DNA of 64,000 bases. Source: Protonemura montana. Its lineage: Eukaryota > Arthropoda > Insecta > Plecoptera > Nemouridae. Every line of letters starts with the position of its first letter. Position 1 is the first letter of the stretch. The notes beneath the pieces are model-generated. The model saw nothing but the letters and a program-made list of their open reading frames with translations. It was not told the DNA's origin and did not search any database. The stretch spans positions 11,919,660 to 11,983,659 of the forward strand of contig OX387609.1 in the NCBI GenBank assembly GCA_947568835.1, read 5' to 3'. Shown here in pieces: positions 2,771 to 54,100 of this stretch. A program made the translations under genes and the position numbers.

Positions 2771-3082
2771 TTACATTTTACTTTTTGCATTTGCATTTGT
2801 ATAGGTGATTAAAAACTCGTAAATGGTGTAAAAACAATGTTCAATGAGATAATTCTCAAGTCTTCGTTTTAAATCACATTCATTCTTATCTTTCAGTTCT
2901 GATGGTAGAGCATTGTTAAATAGGCAGCCTGCAAATGAAGGTCCTTTCTTATAAATGAGGAGATTTGGTTTTTGTAACTTCAATTGATTCTTTTGTCTTG
3001 TTTCATAACATACATTTTTCCTGGCTGAAGATAAGCTATTTTCATTTCGAATACATAAAATTACATAAAAATATATAAGCAA
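2771..3082 (-). pseudogene. Non-LTR retrotransposon ORF2 C-terminal fragment
   Basis: The minus-strand frame reads GPSFAGCLFNNALPSELKDK followed by a FK-type helix region ending FYTIYEFL. This fits the characteristic C-terminal tail of LINE reverse transcriptases (S..G...wN.LP..l......FK..l). There are no RT catalytic blocks, so it is a 5'-truncated remnant. Confidence 0.6.
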
Positions 3083-3868
3083 GTTAGAGTTAGTATCTCA
3101 AAACGTTTAAACAAGGGTCTGCAGGAGTCTTTCATCAATGTCACAGCACTAGGGTCCGCACTAGCCTTTGCCATGGATCTTAAGTGCACGCTTCTGCAAT
3201 ATAAACAACCTTCCCCATAGGATTACCCCGGAGGATAGTCTTGATTTTGTGTTAGACAAATATACCAGACTTGCAGTTTCCAGTGGCGTTACTGGCAGCA
3301 ACCTTTTAATGAGGCTGTCAGACTAGCAGACTAGCAGACTAGTAGTCTGCTAGGTAGCTGCAGGTAGCTATGCTGCCTTGTTTGTCCGCCGTGCCTGTCC
3401 ACGACCACAGCTTTTCACAAATTGGGTCATCGAGATTCGATGCCCACTTTCTGCCATGTTCCACTGACCACTGTCTGTTGTAGACAACATGCAAGGCATT
3501 TTTGTTCCTGTTAAGTGTTAACAGACTGTTAATTATCTTTTTTTATTCTTGACTATAAGTCATAGTCCTCGTCTCATTGTGTTTCTACTATTTCTATATT
3601 AATATTGCCTTTCCCAGTTCATAGAGGTGCTAAAAAATACGTTTTTTCCAGAGATTACACGATTTTTTATCGATAACGGTCTGTTAAATAAACTTGATCT
3701 TTTATTGAAACAAATTTGAATTTGAACTTAAAAAATACGATCGTGAACTTCGATCTTTTTAACAGATTGCTTTTTGACGACGATCGTGATCTTTTCAGCA
3801 GATCAAATTAAAAACGATCTTTCCCAACTGTGGTCTCTACCAGCTTCCCTGCCATCTGGCGCTTTTCA

Positions 3869-7800: not shown

Positions 7801-10800
7801 ATTTAAATATGAAAAAAAAAACACACTTAAAATTGTGGCAAGAAAATTCAACTAATTTTTCCTGAAATATTAAGTAAGATTTACTGATTATTAAACCTAT
7901 AATTTACTTATGCTAAGAAACGATCAAGTAAACAAGAATATAAAAAAACAAATATTGTTAAGATTTTTTTTTCATTTCAAACGAATGTTAAATTAATTGT
8001 TCGTTGAATACTGGACAAGAGTTGTTAAAAAATCAAGATTTACAAATCGGCTACCAGAAAAAAATGTTACCACTCGAAACAATCCAGGAAAGTCGAATGT
8101 GGAGTTCCGTAGCAATTCGAAGTTTTTTTTTGTAAAAAATTGTAAAACTGTAATTACCGAGAGAATTTAAAACTTGTGACGATTAGGTTATGTGGGCGCC
8201 TGTAACGGTAACAACTCAAAGCTGTCTCCATGGCAACGGTTAAAGACACCCCGTGACGTCACGTACCTTTGGCTAGTCGAGGACGCAGCGACTCCACAGA
8301 CTTGAGGACGCATGCGTCGTACGCTGGATCGGTCACCTTGCACACCTGCACGTAGCTAGCTGCAACATGTGGACGCGTGACGTCATCAATACCTGTCATC
8401 GTTGACAAGCTCACTCTATCGGGGGACTACAAGCATAGGGGTACGAGCATAGAGGTACCAGCATAGGGGTACCAGCATAGAGGTACCAGCATAGAGGTAC
8501 CAGCATAGGGGTACAAGTATAGGGGTACAAGCATAGGGGTACCAGCATAGGGGTACAAGCATAGGGGTACAAGCATAGGGGTACGAGCATAGGGGTACGA
8601 GCATAGGGGTACCAGCATAGGGGTACCAGCATAGAGGTACCAGCATAGGGGTACCAGCATAGGGGTACAAGCATAGGGGTACAAGCATAGGGGTACGAGC
8701 ATAGGGGTACGAGCATAGGGGTACCAGCATAGGGGTACCAGCATAGAGGTACCAGCATAGGGGTACAAGCATAGGGGTACAAGCATAGGGGTACGAGCAT
8801 AGGGGTACCAGCATAGGGGTACCAGCATAGAGGTACCAGCATAGGGGTACAAGCATAGGGGTACCAGCAGAGGGGTACCAGCATAGGGGTACCAGCATAG
8901 GGGTACAAGCATAGAGGTACCAGCATAGGGGTACAAGCATAGGGGTACAAGCATAGGGGTACAAGCATAGGGGTACAAGCATAGGGGTACAAGCATAGGG
9001 GTACCAGCATAGGGGTACCAGCATAGAGGTACCAGCATAGAGGTACCAGCATAGAGGTACCAGCATAGGGGTACCAGCATAGGGGTACAAGCATAGGGGT
9101 ACAAGCATAGAGGTACCAGCATAGGGGTACCAGCATAGGGGTACAAGCATAGGGGTATAAGCATAGGGGTACAAGCATAGGGGTACCAGCATAGGGGTAC
9201 CAGCATAGGGGTACCAGCATAGAGGTACCAGCATAGGGGTACAAGCATAGGGGTACAAGCAACGGACTCAGGACCAACCTTCTCTGCTGTCAACAAAACT
9301 TATTTGAAGAGTGTCCAAATTTTGTGTTGGGCAAGTTGGGGTAGTGAGTACAATACTTTGAACGGAATGAGCATCGCACATGAACACGCACATGTTTGTT
9401 ATTGTGACAAGGTTTGCAAATAATTCTTGTCAAACAAAAAGTTTTGCAATTCTATGTACGACAGCATCCGTGAACGCTACTTTTTTGTTTAATCTTGGAA
9501 ATTTTGGCAATTTTGAAAATTATTTTGGATCTGTCCAAAAATGGTCAGCCTGATGCTGGTGATGGATAAATTTTAAAACGTAAAGTACACATATTTAAAT
9601 TGTTGCTAAAATCAACACTGAACGAATGGTATTTTTTGAAAATCGGCTTTTCATCAAATAAAACTTAAATAAAAGCCACGATTTCTCACTGAAAATAGCT
9701 TGCATGGTTTATTTTGACAGAAATAACATTGTATTTTTAAAGCCATTGTCTTAATTTTAACATTTGAAGTCATCTGAGTTGAAAGATCTCTCTAGAAGGT
9801 CGCACATGAAATAATTTGCCCCAGTGGCAATTGTTTTCTTCGTACAAGAACAAAAGATCTGAAGGCGATGTCAGAGTTAATTCTTAATTTCATTCGTAAA
9901 ACAGATGACATTCTACGATTATCATAATTATCATAAAAACAGGTTAAAGTGGCTGTGAAAATGCGTGTCGTCATATCTTGATGATCACTACTTACTGGTT
10001 CTATAATTCAAATTGTGTGAATATGCACCAACCACCTCACTTATCCTGCACCACCTCACTTATCCTGCAGCACCTCGCTTATCCTGCAGCACCACACTTA
10101 TCCTGCAGCACCTCACTTATCCTGCAGCACCTCACTTATCCTGCAGCACCACACTTATCCTGCAGCACCTCACTTATCCTGCAGCACCTCACTTATCCTG
10201 CAGCACCTCACTTATCCTGCAGCACCACACTTATCCTGCATGATCACGTTGTAATCATACTGATGTCAAGCACTAACCGTTTCATAGGGGCTTATTTTCT
10301 GACTTGTTTTGGAATAATTTTGAAATAATTTTGCTCCAAAAAAACAGACCACCAAAAGTGAAAAATATTCCTTGGGATACAGACATTTTTCCTTGTATCG
10401 TTAAATAAGGACCACATTTATTTGTGTTATCAGGTCATTATAGCTGAGCATCAGTTCGCTATTTCAGCGCCTTCTGTAAGCATAACGTGATGATTTATAT
10501 CTCTTGTCTGTGGCGTAGGAAGCTTGGCCATCTAGATGTGACAATTAGCATTTATTATTTTTTTAATATCTGGGAAGATAAAACAGATATCTGCATTTTG
10601 AAAACAAAAGAGTACGATTTCTATCGCTAAGAGTGTGTAACATATGTAGTCACATATTCTTATGTGCCCCAAAAAATGAGATAACAGCCACAGGGTTCCC
10701 ATGGCTACCGATTGCACTGCGCCTAACCAGGCCAATGTCGCTGTTTGGGCACCAAGTCAGATAAAAAACAGCTGGCAATCGTTTAGAACCTCGGCTTGCT

Positions 10801-20564: not shown

Positions 20565-23500
20565 TTATGTATCTGTGAACACAATTTGCTGCAGCCAGTC
20601 AACATATGATGATATATGTGTACACAAAGTCATATGCTCCGACCGGCAGACCAATGTACTCTCTTCTGTTTGACAGGGCGCAGAACTAACGACTCCTCTA
20701 AGAAAGTAACAGACTTCGGCAAAATTAGTCGCTGGAAAGACGAAGCCGCCGCCCGAGTCCCCGCTGCAGACGCTGGTCGACCGGTTCCGGTACCCGCCAC
20801 AAAACTTGTCGCGGAGGAGGAAGCTTGTGAAGTTCCAGGGCACAGAGGAATTGCTTTCTCCAAACGACACGAACGGCAGATTGACATATCGGAGGGTGGG
20901 GCTCATGGTGTTGTTCTCCGTCATGCCCCATCCTGCTACCTGCAACAAGACCAATTGGGATGCCGAGATCTGGTTTTCATAGCAAGTGTTGACTGGCCAG
21001 AAATAACTCAGAGAAAGTATAATCACAGTATATTAACCTTAAATAAAATCGCTAATTTTGGTTTCCTTGGTTACCTCGTGGGTCGGTGGAAAACTTTGAC
21101 ACATCAAAAGTGTGCTTTTTGAACTTTGGCAAAGCTTTAAAGGTTGATTCTTATTCTAAACTTACCGAGGATCACCCGACGGCAAAGAAAAATGCAATAC
21201 AATCGCTTTTTGTGGGTTAAAAAAGCAAAACATTCCGAGAAAACACAGTCTTGAATCTTTTTTTTTTTTTTTTTTTTTCGGCATTTTTTTTTTTAAGTGG
21301 CTTTCCAGTATCATCAGCATGAGCGCGTTGTCACTACTGTCATATAGGTATCAAAAAAATGTCGATTTAATCCTTGATGGGTGAGAAATTGGTCAAATAC
21401 GACGATTTTTCTCCATCCCCAGCCTAGACAAGGTCACGCAGTTGATTCCAAGCAATCAATAATATTTTCGACATTTTATACAAATCACCAATCATTTTAA
21501 CTTAGATGAAATCTTATTTAAATTGTAAATGCTTGCAATGCACGAGGTATTTCGAATCCCGATCTCTACCTATCGCGGATGTTGCTCTAACCAATTGAGT
21601 TACTTGCACACTGGCTTTTTTAGACAATTTTAGTGTTTTTTTTTAGTGTGTTTGGGCAAATGGGTGAGATTGAACCTGGACATTGAGTCAAACCCTTCAA
21701 ACTAACAAAATGGGTGAACAATTTACTGCAGAGTTGTTCTCGATATTTACTTTTTTCCGGACCAAAATTGCTGACTAATTCACATCACTTTTATCAGTAT
21801 CACTCAATTCACTTACGGCAGCTGCGTACGCAGCGAGTGCACTTCTAGTATAATTATAATAGCCGGCCCATAAAAGGGTTATAAACCATAAAAGTTACAT
21901 TCAAGGTAAAGGCAAGATGTAGCTTTGGTCTTGACAGAATCTTAAGATGTTACTTATCCCGACAAGATCACCATCACAAGATAAAACAGCTGCAACCAAG
22001 AACCAACATTGGAAAGTTCTGTTTAGCCGCAGAGGGGATAAGATTATGGAATAATCTGCTGGGGAGTGCGGTTATACCACTAGCAAAAAGCTCCAAAGAA
22101 ATGAGGGCTAAACTTAGCAATATACAAAAAAGCTAGCAACAACTGATAGCATTTATAATGAATGAAATGCACGTCAAAGTTGTGAAAAAATAAATAAAAT
22201 AAAAATAAATAAAAATAAAATGTCCAGCTATGCCTTTGTAGGTTAAAATTCCTCGTGGAAGACTTACAAGGCCCATGCTGTTGCTCGTAAGCTGCTGGTA
22301 CTCGAACAACGTGTTCCATTCCAGACACACAACTCCAACCGCCAACGTCGCTGTGACAGGCGTTGACAGTTGGATGACGGCAATATCCGATTCAAACCGC
22401 TTTGATTGTCCTTGATAGTGCTTCGGGATGTGGATCGCTCCCACACCCCTTCGCTGTTCGTGGTCATCTCTTATCTTCCAAAGCAAACTGGACTTCCCGA
22501 CGGCAGCCTTGTATGTGCTGCCACCCCAGAAGCAGTGAGTTGCTGCAACAGCCAGAGATCAGAGCAATTATAAAAAAGCCGTCGAGAGTTAGTGACCAGA
22601 ATGAAGTGGAAACCATGTCTCCCAATGGTGACAGGAGTTAAACTGTGTCATTTGGAAGATCAGCACCAAAGATGTTGGTACTAGAGATCGGCACTCTTTA
22701 CTGGCTTAACTTCTCACTAAGTGTTTAGCATGTGCAAATCCATGGCAGAAATCATATGGACTTATTTGTCACCCACTGCAAGCAATGTAACAAATATGAC
22801 GGATATTTTTCAAGTAAGCTCAAGGCAAAAGTTCAGCTGAATACAAATTAAGATGCACCATAGCAGTGGTCTCAACCTACCGGAGATAAAGAACTCGAGT
22901 GTGATGAGTGACCCGCCGCAAATGGGTTCAAACGAGTTGCCTTTCTTGCGGAAAACAGCCTCGTGCCACGGGAACTCGGTGGACTGTGCTTCTTTCCCAC
23001 CCGAGGACAGTGGAGAGGCTCTTCCCATCCGGAGACCGCAATCTACGGCACAGAAAGGCACCAGCCAGCAGTTAGTGAAGGCCCAGCAAGCCTTGCTTCA
23101 GAGCACAGCAAGCCTTGCTTCAGAGCACAGCAAGCCTTGCTTCAGAGCCCAGCAAGCATTGCTTCAGAGCCCAGTAAGCCTTGCTTCAGAGCACATCAAG
23201 CCTTGCTTCAGAGCACAGTAAGCCTTGCTTTAGAGCACAGCAAGCCTTGCTTCAGAGCACAGCAAGCCTTGCTTCAGAGCACATCAAGCCTTGCTTCAGA
23301 GCCCAGTAAGCCTTGCTTCAGAGCACAGTAAGCCTTGCTTCAGAGCACAGCAAGCCTTGCTTTAGAGCACAGCAAGCCTTGCTTCAGAGCCCAGCAAGCA
23401 TTGCTTCAGAGCCCAGTAAGCCTTGCTTCAGAGCCCAGTAAGCCTTGCTTCAGAGCCCAGTAAGCCTTTCTTCAGAGCACAGCAAGCCTTGCTTCAGAGC

Positions 23501-51100: not shown

Positions 51101-54100
51101 AACTCGAGAATTGTTTTGGCTAAAAATAATTTAAAATCTGATCAAAAGTCAAAAACAGATTTTACTGATTTTATGGTATTTTTGACAGGTTTAAAAGAAG
51201 ATATGGGCATACAAAAATACTCAAAAAAAAAAGAAAAAATCCAATATTAAACCAAGTTGTTGGTGAAATTGGGAAAAAATCAGCAAATATTATCACTGTG
51301 AAATTGTCAAACAGGTCAAAGGGCAACTGTTAAAGGAACACCTTCAATTGAAATTTAAAAATTACTGTATGTGAGGAACATCAATTAATTAAGGATCCCG
51401 TAAAAAAGAAAAATCTTAAAAAATGTGGTGCATATTTTCTCGCGCTTTTTCTTTTTGGCGCGAAGCTCCGCTAGTGACGTCAGAGATAGGTAGTCTGCAG
51501 GGCTAGCAAGCGCTGCCCGGTTGCCGCGGCTGCTGCCAGTTAGTTCGTGCGATACCTCTTTGCGAGTAGGATTGTTTTTTCTCGTTACTATATTTGTCTC
51601 GTATATTTGTCTATGTGTGCTATGTCTAACGATTGCTACTTTATAAGTGAACCAACTGCAGAATAATGGTGAACAATCATTGTGTTGTGTATCAGTGTTC
51701 GAACACGAAAGGCCCATTTTCTTTCCACAAATTTCCAGATAAGAATAAGTTTCCTGGGATGTATCGGCAATGGTTGCATAAAGTTAATCGGACAGATTTT
51801 GTCCCAAGAAAATCCTCGTGTGTTTGTTCCGCACATTTTCAAGAAGATGATTTTGAAATTCGCAACAAACTAAAACTGCAATTGATGGGCGATGCAGTGA
51901 AATCCAGACCCATTTTGAAGAAAACGGCAGTCCCGTCGTTGCTCATGACTGGTAAATCACATTCGAATGTTTGTCCTCCACCGAAAAAGCGTCAGAAGTC
52001 CATGTTTTTGATCAATAAGGAGAAAGAGGAGTTATTGGACCATGTGCCAGATTATTTGAACGAGCCGTCAACGAGCAAATCGCACCCGAATCCGCGAGTG
52101 AAACCCATCGCTATCACAAGCCAAGCGCCGGGCGATCCATTTTCGCGTGAAATAAGCACTCAATGCGAGTTAGGCATTGAAACTTTGCGTCGAGTTTGTT
52201 TAGAAAATGAAGAGAGTTCTAGTGAAACGGATACTAGTGAGAGTGAATTGCAAAACTTAGACGAATCTTTCAAACTAAATAGTGAGGATGATGATCACAT
52301 GATGTGAGCACATCAATGCTTTTCGTGATAACGTCGAATGACCCGTGCTCGGTAATGCACTCGTCATTCTGGCACAACGCTCGTATTTGTGGTGGCTCTT
52401 TACAGCAATGCGATTCTACGTCGCTGTCCATTGCAACGCAGTTACCACACGTACACCACGAGGTGTTTCCTGCTCGCCCTACAAAGGATTCTTGTAGTCT
52501 CCTTTCATCGGCTTTTTTGCAAATATTTTCTTCAATCTCGCTCTGAGTAAACTTCGGGTCTAAACTGAAAGGTCCAGCCATTGCCACACTTCAATGAAAC
52601 AATGCGACACTATCGCGAGCGCGCCGACCCTACCGACTCTGCAGCGCGCGTCTTACAGTCTTGCAGACTGCCGCTGCAGACTCCCTATCTCTGACGTCAC
52701 GCACGGAGCTTCGCGCCAAAAAGAAAAAGTGCGAGAAATGTGCACCGCATTTTTTTAGATTTTTCTTTTTTACGGGATCCTTAATTAATTGATGTTCCTC
52801 ACATACAGTAATTTTTAAATGTCAATTGAAGGTGGTCCTTTAAGCTTAAGAAGAACAAGACAAGAAACTCTCGTTGGGCTCACGTTTCATCTCTTTGCGC
52901 AGACGGAGCAGCTCCGCGCCAAGGTGCTTGACCTCACGGTCGGCCATCTTGTCTGCGTGCGACGGACGGTAGCCGAACTCTCGCTCGAACCTCTCGTCGA
53001 AACGCTTCAACTTGCGCTTTACGCTGCAAACAAAACATGGACCAAAACACTTCAACAAGAGCTCAAAACATTCATAGCTTTCTTAATTGTCAGGTTTCAA
53101 AAAAGCTTCATAATTTTCCCACGGTACTTCAAACGAACAAGCCTAACAGTGTTTGGTCCTTAATGCTGTTGGACAGGAGCAGCCAATACAGTATGTCAAA
53201 GGGACAAGGCTAAGCGGTGGCCGGTCCTTGGTTGCTGTTGGACAGGAGCAGCCAACACAGTGTGTCAAAGGGACAAGGCTCAGCGGTGGCCGGTCCTTGG
53301 TGCTGTTGGACAGGAGCAGCCACACAGTGTGTCAAAGGGACAAGACTAAGAGGTGGCCGATCCTTGGTGCTATTGGACAGGAGCAGCCAACACAGTGTGT
53401 CAGAGGGAGCAGACAGTACCTGCTGGTCTGCTTATGCAAGTGTTTCATCTGTGTGTCCAGCTGGGCCGGACTGCGTGGGCTTCGTGGGCTCCGGGGGCTA
53501 TGCTCCTGAGGGGGAGAAGGAGGCACGCTGGAGTCGAGCCCCCCGCGCCCCCCTCCCAGCGGGACACAGCCTCTTGGAGACAGCAAAGCCTGGAACATCG
53601 AAGACAACGGATTGAACATCTCGACCAGGCAATGTGAGAATGTAGAAGAAATTAAAAACAATAATTATTTAAATTAATTATCACATTGAGGGCAGATTTC
53701 ACTAACATAAGGCTAAACGTGGTTAACTTTTAATCAATGATACTTTGCAAACGCCAAGCAAGTAAACTTAGCGAACACATGTATGTGTATTTCAATATCT
53801 TTTTGGATCTATTTAGGCTTTATTTAAGTCATATATACTTTGACTTATATTAAAGTCACTGCTTGGAATTTCTACTTATGGGCACTTGCAAGCATTGATT
53901 CTATTTCTGCACGGTGTACAAATGTTGATATACTTTGTGCACCCCTGGCAAGCTCTGCCAACTCCACGTGGCTTAGGAAGTAACCCACTTAGGACATCTG
54001 ATTTCCTGATTTCATTCCTATCTGAAAATCATCGACAATGTTTGCTTTTCGAAGCGAATGGGTTGCGTGAAGTCAGGGCTACCAACCTGTGTTGGTGTGA

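Follow-up and report, generated by a model that had tools for sequence, protein, structure and literature searches.

A TTAA-flanked element of Protonemura montana with truncated THAP and P2X7 ballast-type frames: a very probable deletion derivative of a Kolobok transposon

Does a cysteine-rich reading frame that resembles the cytoplasmic ballast domain of P2X7 receptors, lying opposite a THAP frame between two TTAA copies, belong to a transposon, or was it picked up by chance by a single element? The question is raised by a 64,000-nucleotide stretch of DNA from the plecopteran insect P. montana (assembly GCA_947568835.1, contig OX387609.1, positions 11,919,660 to 11,983,659 of the forward strand), here called the window. 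Its preliminary description proposed a compact two-gene transposon in which the ballast domain is a cargo or accessory gene, and saw in this a route by which a receptor could have acquired the domain. The features of the element, in window positions, are:

51330..51333, no strand: left target-site copy, TTAA, read from the sequence
51334..51500, plus strand: left terminal inverted repeat, starting AGGAACACC, 93% identical to the right repeat (BLAST)
51666..52307, plus strand: truncated THAP-transposase frame, 213 aa, of which 210 codons are native and three come from the filler; its stop lies in the right part
52270..52581, minus strand: truncated frame of KolX (P2X7 ballast-type), 103 aa, of which 92 codons are native and 11 are read across the junction
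52296..52304, no strand: 9-bp filler at the internal-deletion junction, from comparison with the full-length element
52674..52839, minus strand: right terminal inverted repeat, starting, read inward, AGGACCACC (BLAST against the left repeat)
52840..52843, no strand: right target-site copy, TTAA, read from the sequence

The element occupies 51334-52839 (1,506 bp). The exact TTAA flanks and the inverted repeats of about 166 bp that had been described are both present; by BLAST the repeats are 166-167 bp long, one base apart in length, and 93% identical. The THAP gene reading inward from the left end was also correctly recognized: the frame is open at 51651-52307 (+), with its first ATG at 51666, and its THAP domain (approximately 51681-51941) scores 55.7 bits with the Pfam THAP model (cut-off 23.9). 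The cysteine-rich frame reading inward from the right end (open at 52590-52270 on the minus strand, first ATG at 52581) exists as well, but it is truncated. It retains the WCxCxxC and CC...CIT motifs and six of seven otherwise invariant cysteines, lacks the third ballast motif (IPSC...YVG) and scores 20.4 bits with P2RX7_C (PF20478), under the curated cut-off of 23.5. The sub-threshold score is a consequence of the truncation; the full-length sister gene reaches 66.6 bits.

To find sister copies, the 34 contigs of the genome (258.5 Mb) were searched with the 22 bases at the start of the element, TTAA included, one mismatch being allowed. All 44 ends found match without a mismatch and the reversed-pattern control gave none, which excludes a chance origin of the ends. 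Together they define family A, with 21 complete copies (1,127-3,433 bp) and two unpaired ends. TTAA lies on both sides of all 19 complete copies among loci L017-L036, and likewise of the window copy and of L045. The search by terminal sequence that had been proposed recovered four full-length copies, L017, L018, L020 and L024 (3,427, 3,427, 3,427 and 3,433 bp). The first three differ pairwise at 4-6 of 3,427 positions, and family A is therefore young. A stop interrupts the transposase frame of L017, and the other three full-length copies share one set of open frames. Sister copies devoid of both genes, which would have pointed to an accidental capture, are absent: a THAP match is found in 21/21 complete copies and a KolX match in 18/21. 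One family A copy, L035 (C1:22582374-22584292; 1,919 bp), is a head-to-head structure with two left ends, 931-bp arms, a 57-bp loop and TTAA flanks. An old, decayed relative of the family, L057 (C14:1958262-1958420), has a KolX fragment (55% identity to that of family A) beside a transposase fragment.

Comparison with the full-length element shows how the window copy is built. Full-length positions 1-962 form its left part and positions 2893-3427 its right part, which begins at 52305; a 9-bp filler joins them. The 1,930 bp missing (positions 963-2892) took with them the core of the transposase and the latter half of KolX. After 210 native residues the THAP product ends in HMM and a stop. Over the parts compared, no full-length copy departs from the window copy at more than one position (962 left bases in four copies; 535 right bases in three, L024 being left out on that side). 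The 38-bp overlap of the two 3' ends at 52270-52307, noted in the preliminary description, is real, but it was created by the deletion junction and is a scar, not a native gene arrangement. A native overlapping gene pair was accordingly rejected: approximately 110 bp separate the ends of the two frames in the full-length element. Instead of a compact two-gene transposon, the window holds a non-autonomous derivative whose internal deletion truncated both genes.

In the full-length element a THAP-DDE transposase gene reads inward from the left and KolX inward from the right, the two being convergent. The transposase strand carries a 588-codon frame followed by a 144-codon frame in the same register, and a candidate GT-AG intron of 117 bp (positions 2035-2151 of the full-length element) contains the stop between them. 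Removal of this putative intron would give a transposase of 689 aa. The spliced family A sequence reads CHTG-NLESYHN at this point, where the transposases of two further families, B and C, read through uninterrupted, without an intron at that position. With the intron removed, L018 has DGQYD, TDRHRG, DVWH (the C/DxxH motif) and, within HTGNLESYHN, the catalytic E all in place. The C/DxxH motif between the second D and the E is also seen, unspliced, in family B (L047) and family C (L052), and in an A-B-C alignment restricted to these host families Cys and His residues are conserved between C/DxxH and the last E. In Pfam the L018 transposase scores 53.6 bits with THAP, and its matches to Mutator and MULE are sub-threshold. 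The full-length family A KolX protein has 180 aa and scores 66.6 bits with PF20478, above the cut-off of 23.5. In the longer copies THAP and a DDE core thus share a strand, and the opposite strand carries a complete ballast gene, which is the arrangement that the preliminary description had suggested looking for; both of the domain models it named, THAP in the window and P2RX7_C in the full-length sister gene, exceed their cut-offs.

TTAA is the target of more than one superfamily, and the exact TTAA flanks would suit a piggyBac-type element too. This assignment is extremely unlikely: the termini are AGG...CCT (5'-RR...YY-3') in families A, B, C and in a fourth family, D, and RR...YY ends set Kolobok apart from piggyBac according to PMC9587614; the THAP domain and the C/DxxH motif are likewise against it. 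PiggyBac was rejected on the termini. An N-terminal THAP domain is described as usual in Kolobok (PMC6004289), and the earlier assignment to a Kolobok type is borne out by the TTAA, the RR/YY ends, the THAP domain and, in sister copies, the DDE core with C/DxxH. Placement in the Kol0 lineage, as predicted from sequence, would rest on KolX. The type of that lineage is Kolobok-1_XT, and the features given for it in PMC9587614 (TTAA, RR/YY termini, DDE with C/DxxH, a KolX protein of ballast fold with seven cysteines) are the same here. Compared with that account, the window copy is internally deleted, KolX is convergent, and family A has a putative intron before the catalytic E; the transposase-bearing copies of family C, unlike Kol0, have lost KolX. 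Taking observed and inferred steps together, we consider it very likely that the window element derives by internal deletion from a cut-and-paste DNA transposon of the Kolobok superfamily (Kol0-type), and that it is both young and non-autonomous.

The other families of this genome decide whether KolX is a regular part of such elements. Family B has a single full-length copy (L047; 3,535 bp) with a transposase of 723 aa and a convergent KolX of 179 aa. In family D (L058 and L063), whose ends measure 48 bp, the transposase is broken, a THAP remnant persists, and KolX is open, convergent and 200 aa long. Seven cysteines are invariant in KolX of A, B and D, which is the number reported for the two zinc sites of KolX (PMC9587614), and the motifs WCxCxxC, CC...CIT and (I/V)P(S/A)C...Y(V/I)G are common to all three families. 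Between A and B the amino-acid identity of KolX (39.5%) is close to that of the transposase (40.7%). Divergence between A and B is given by codon position, second positions differing at 0.42 and third positions at 0.67; dS is saturated and dN/dS was not used.

Family C is known from three copies on contigs C4, C5 and C14 with differing flanks and an open transposase of 733 aa; L052 and L053 were examined whole and the C5 copy by its ends. L052 and L053 are 99.97% identical over 3,631 bp. In the transposase-bearing copies KolX is cut to approximately its first 22 codons. Three short copies (L068-L070) have the KolX N-terminal region beside the family C right end, and two of the three match the C left end too. 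Given these remnants and the near-identical, multiplied copies, family C has lost KolX and multiplied nonetheless, so that KolX is not required in cis; other families perhaps supply it.

Since KolX occurs in A, B and D, with a remnant in C, and is conserved like the transposase, it is a regular transposon gene and not chance cargo. A single capture by the window element would be in keeping with the weak, sub-threshold P2RX7_C match of the window copy if that copy were seen in isolation, and no result favours it. We regard such a capture as very improbable and reject it: the same convergent gene recurs in B and D and as a remnant in C, with conservation equal to that of the transposase, and it corresponds to KolX as already described from the Kol0 lineage (PMC9587614). 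A ballast gene confined to one copy is thus not what the genome holds. Of the proposed 'cargo or accessory gene', what stands is that the transposon itself encodes the domain; for a conserved accessory gene, 'cargo' says too little.

KolX also matches P2X7 structures, with E = 4.1e-7 as a single sequence and 7.5e-12 as a three-sequence profile (6u9v, 8tr5, 9e3m and 9e3q). The three motifs common to KolX of A, B and D are those of the P2X7 ballast or ZCD domain (PF20478; PMC7016195). In contrast to P2X7, KolX has no channel and is a stand-alone transposon protein of 179-200 aa; the window copy, in addition, lacks the third motif. Rump et al. (2020) reported ballast proteins across animals, and the available portion of that article (PMC7016195) names no transposon. 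Kojima and Bao (2022) identified KolX of the Kol0 lineage as a ballast fold and concluded that a fusion with KolX gave rise to P2X7 (PMC9587614); within the open-licence PMC literature the term 'KolX' is confined to this single source. The link between ballast domain and transposon is therefore real but not new, and the route to a receptor put forward in the preliminary description had been published in 2022 (PMC9587614). In four families of one animal genome the P2X7 ballast domain is confirmed as a transposon gene under purifying selection, and the published transposon origin of the P2X7 tail is supported, not newly found. The function that the ballast fold had originally may shed light on its presence in P2X7. 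As a whole, the earlier interpretation is partly supported. A search of the host for P2X receptors (PF00864) gave no matches, and the control likewise gave none (0/14). Among viral sequences in IMG/VR, 57 pattern matches to KolX were obtained, none of which was confirmed by tblastn.

Two further observations concern family D and its surroundings. A segment near contig ends is common to L058 (C12:86000-95900) and L063 (C1:33055000-33062000) and has matches on C2, C4, C11, C13, C14, C15 and C28; it contains the broken family D Kolobok with open KolX, and a family B deletion derivative lies approximately 15-19 kb away. It is probably a duplicated subtelomeric block. No telomere repeat was present in the first 500 bases of three contigs, two of which read as N in the portion covered. 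Each of C5:20831138-20849905, C8:101986-120753 and C10:85725-104492 has a pair of family D ends whose TTAA copies are separated by exactly 18,760 bp, which would mean either that a block was duplicated or that the element is very large.

The window copy has lost the DDE catalytic core and kept the THAP DNA-binding domain, and THAP is likewise kept among the derivatives of A and B. The whole THAP domain is kept in 11/11 deletion classes of family A and in 8/8 known classes of family B; the KolX start codon is kept in 9/11 and 8/8, respectively. The A classes cover 16 of the 21 complete copies, with the four full-length copies, the head-to-head L035 and the two single-ended copies left out. For B, breakpoints were taken from 10 of the 21 derivative copies and fall into 8 classes, with the single-ended L051 left out; small indels led to the use of BLAST ends for L049, L055, L056, L071 and one end of L054. 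In family B a THAP match is present in 22/22 complete copies and a KolX match, with the family A query, in 7/22, the remaining copies being judged by breakpoint. When deletions are slid randomly between the ends, the joint probability that every class keeps THAP is 0.9e-4 to 1.6e-4, a range that depends on the end length protected, under a null that takes the classes as independent. Junctions of the 11 A classes show microhomology of 1-4 bp in seven and filler of 3-10 bp in four.

This retention in A and B suggests, from the sequences, self-repression of the KP type; alternatively, it may be caused by cis-acting subterminal DNA instead of a protein. On the latter reading the short copies would be passive, with the left 740-1,607 bp kept for cis needs such as binding sites and spacing, and with both truncated products (THAP and KolX) inert. 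We give this reading an even chance. The copies are too young to show decay of an unused frame; two A classes (L027 and L032) have lost KolX entirely and keep both ends and the TTAA; and two derivative lineages, L019/L022 and L045, persist despite an in-frame stop in the THAP-side match. Against it, THAP retention exceeds the sliding null, and short derivatives of approximately 600-670 bp are plentiful in family D, so that long subterminal DNA is no general need of Kolobok ends here, D being a different family. At least 11 pairs of 591-674 bp are found among the 100 of 314 D ends listed. These are too short to hold much of the THAP gene, and THAP loss is therefore tolerated in family D; for the short copies this loss is read from length alone, and the THAP query matches 0/24 of the D pairs listed, even long ones with a THAP remnant.

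The protein-based reading has its model in the KP elements of the Drosophila P element, which like the window copy keep the N-terminal THAP region and have lost the catalytic core. They belong to a different superfamily, and repression is established for KP but here proposed. The KP product has 207 aa (compare 213 aa in the window copy), and in the P element intron retention gives a second, longer repressor. Lee, Beall and Rio reportedly studied these KP elements in 1998 (cited in PMC7313671).

The following sequence of events would account for the locus. The internal deletion would have arisen by error-prone repair of a transposition gap, which microhomology and filler at the junctions would fit, and full-length sisters would have mobilized the window copy in trans at TTAA. 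KolX may be an accessory protein that cooperates with the transposase even when provided in trans; this helper role is suggested by the family C copies, which multiplied without KolX. The 213-aa THAP product, devoid of the catalytic core, would bind the terminal repeats and compete with the transposase, as the KP repressor does; the repeats adjoin both genes upstream, and binding there would damp transposase and KolX together. For Xenopus Kolobok proteins with DNA binding and without catalysis a repressor role has been suggested (PMC6004289). By analogy one may propose, tentatively and with more doubt than confidence, that families A and B regulate themselves: THAP-keeping derivatives would repress through the shared terminal repeats, KolX would be a trans helper, and intron retention in family A would yield a longer second repressor.

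Two modest points are possibly new, namely a family that multiplied without KolX in cis and the retention of THAP by the A and B deletion derivatives; no report of either was found in the open-licence PMC literature. The near-identical full-length copies, the natural KolX losses and the natural THAP-only derivatives provide material for probing the role of KolX.

Elsewhere in the window, tandem minisatellites at 8411-9299 and 53147-53509 are open in several frames, and a frame at 20565-21032 (-) contains a GDSGG motif, which we take to resemble that of trypsin-type proteases.
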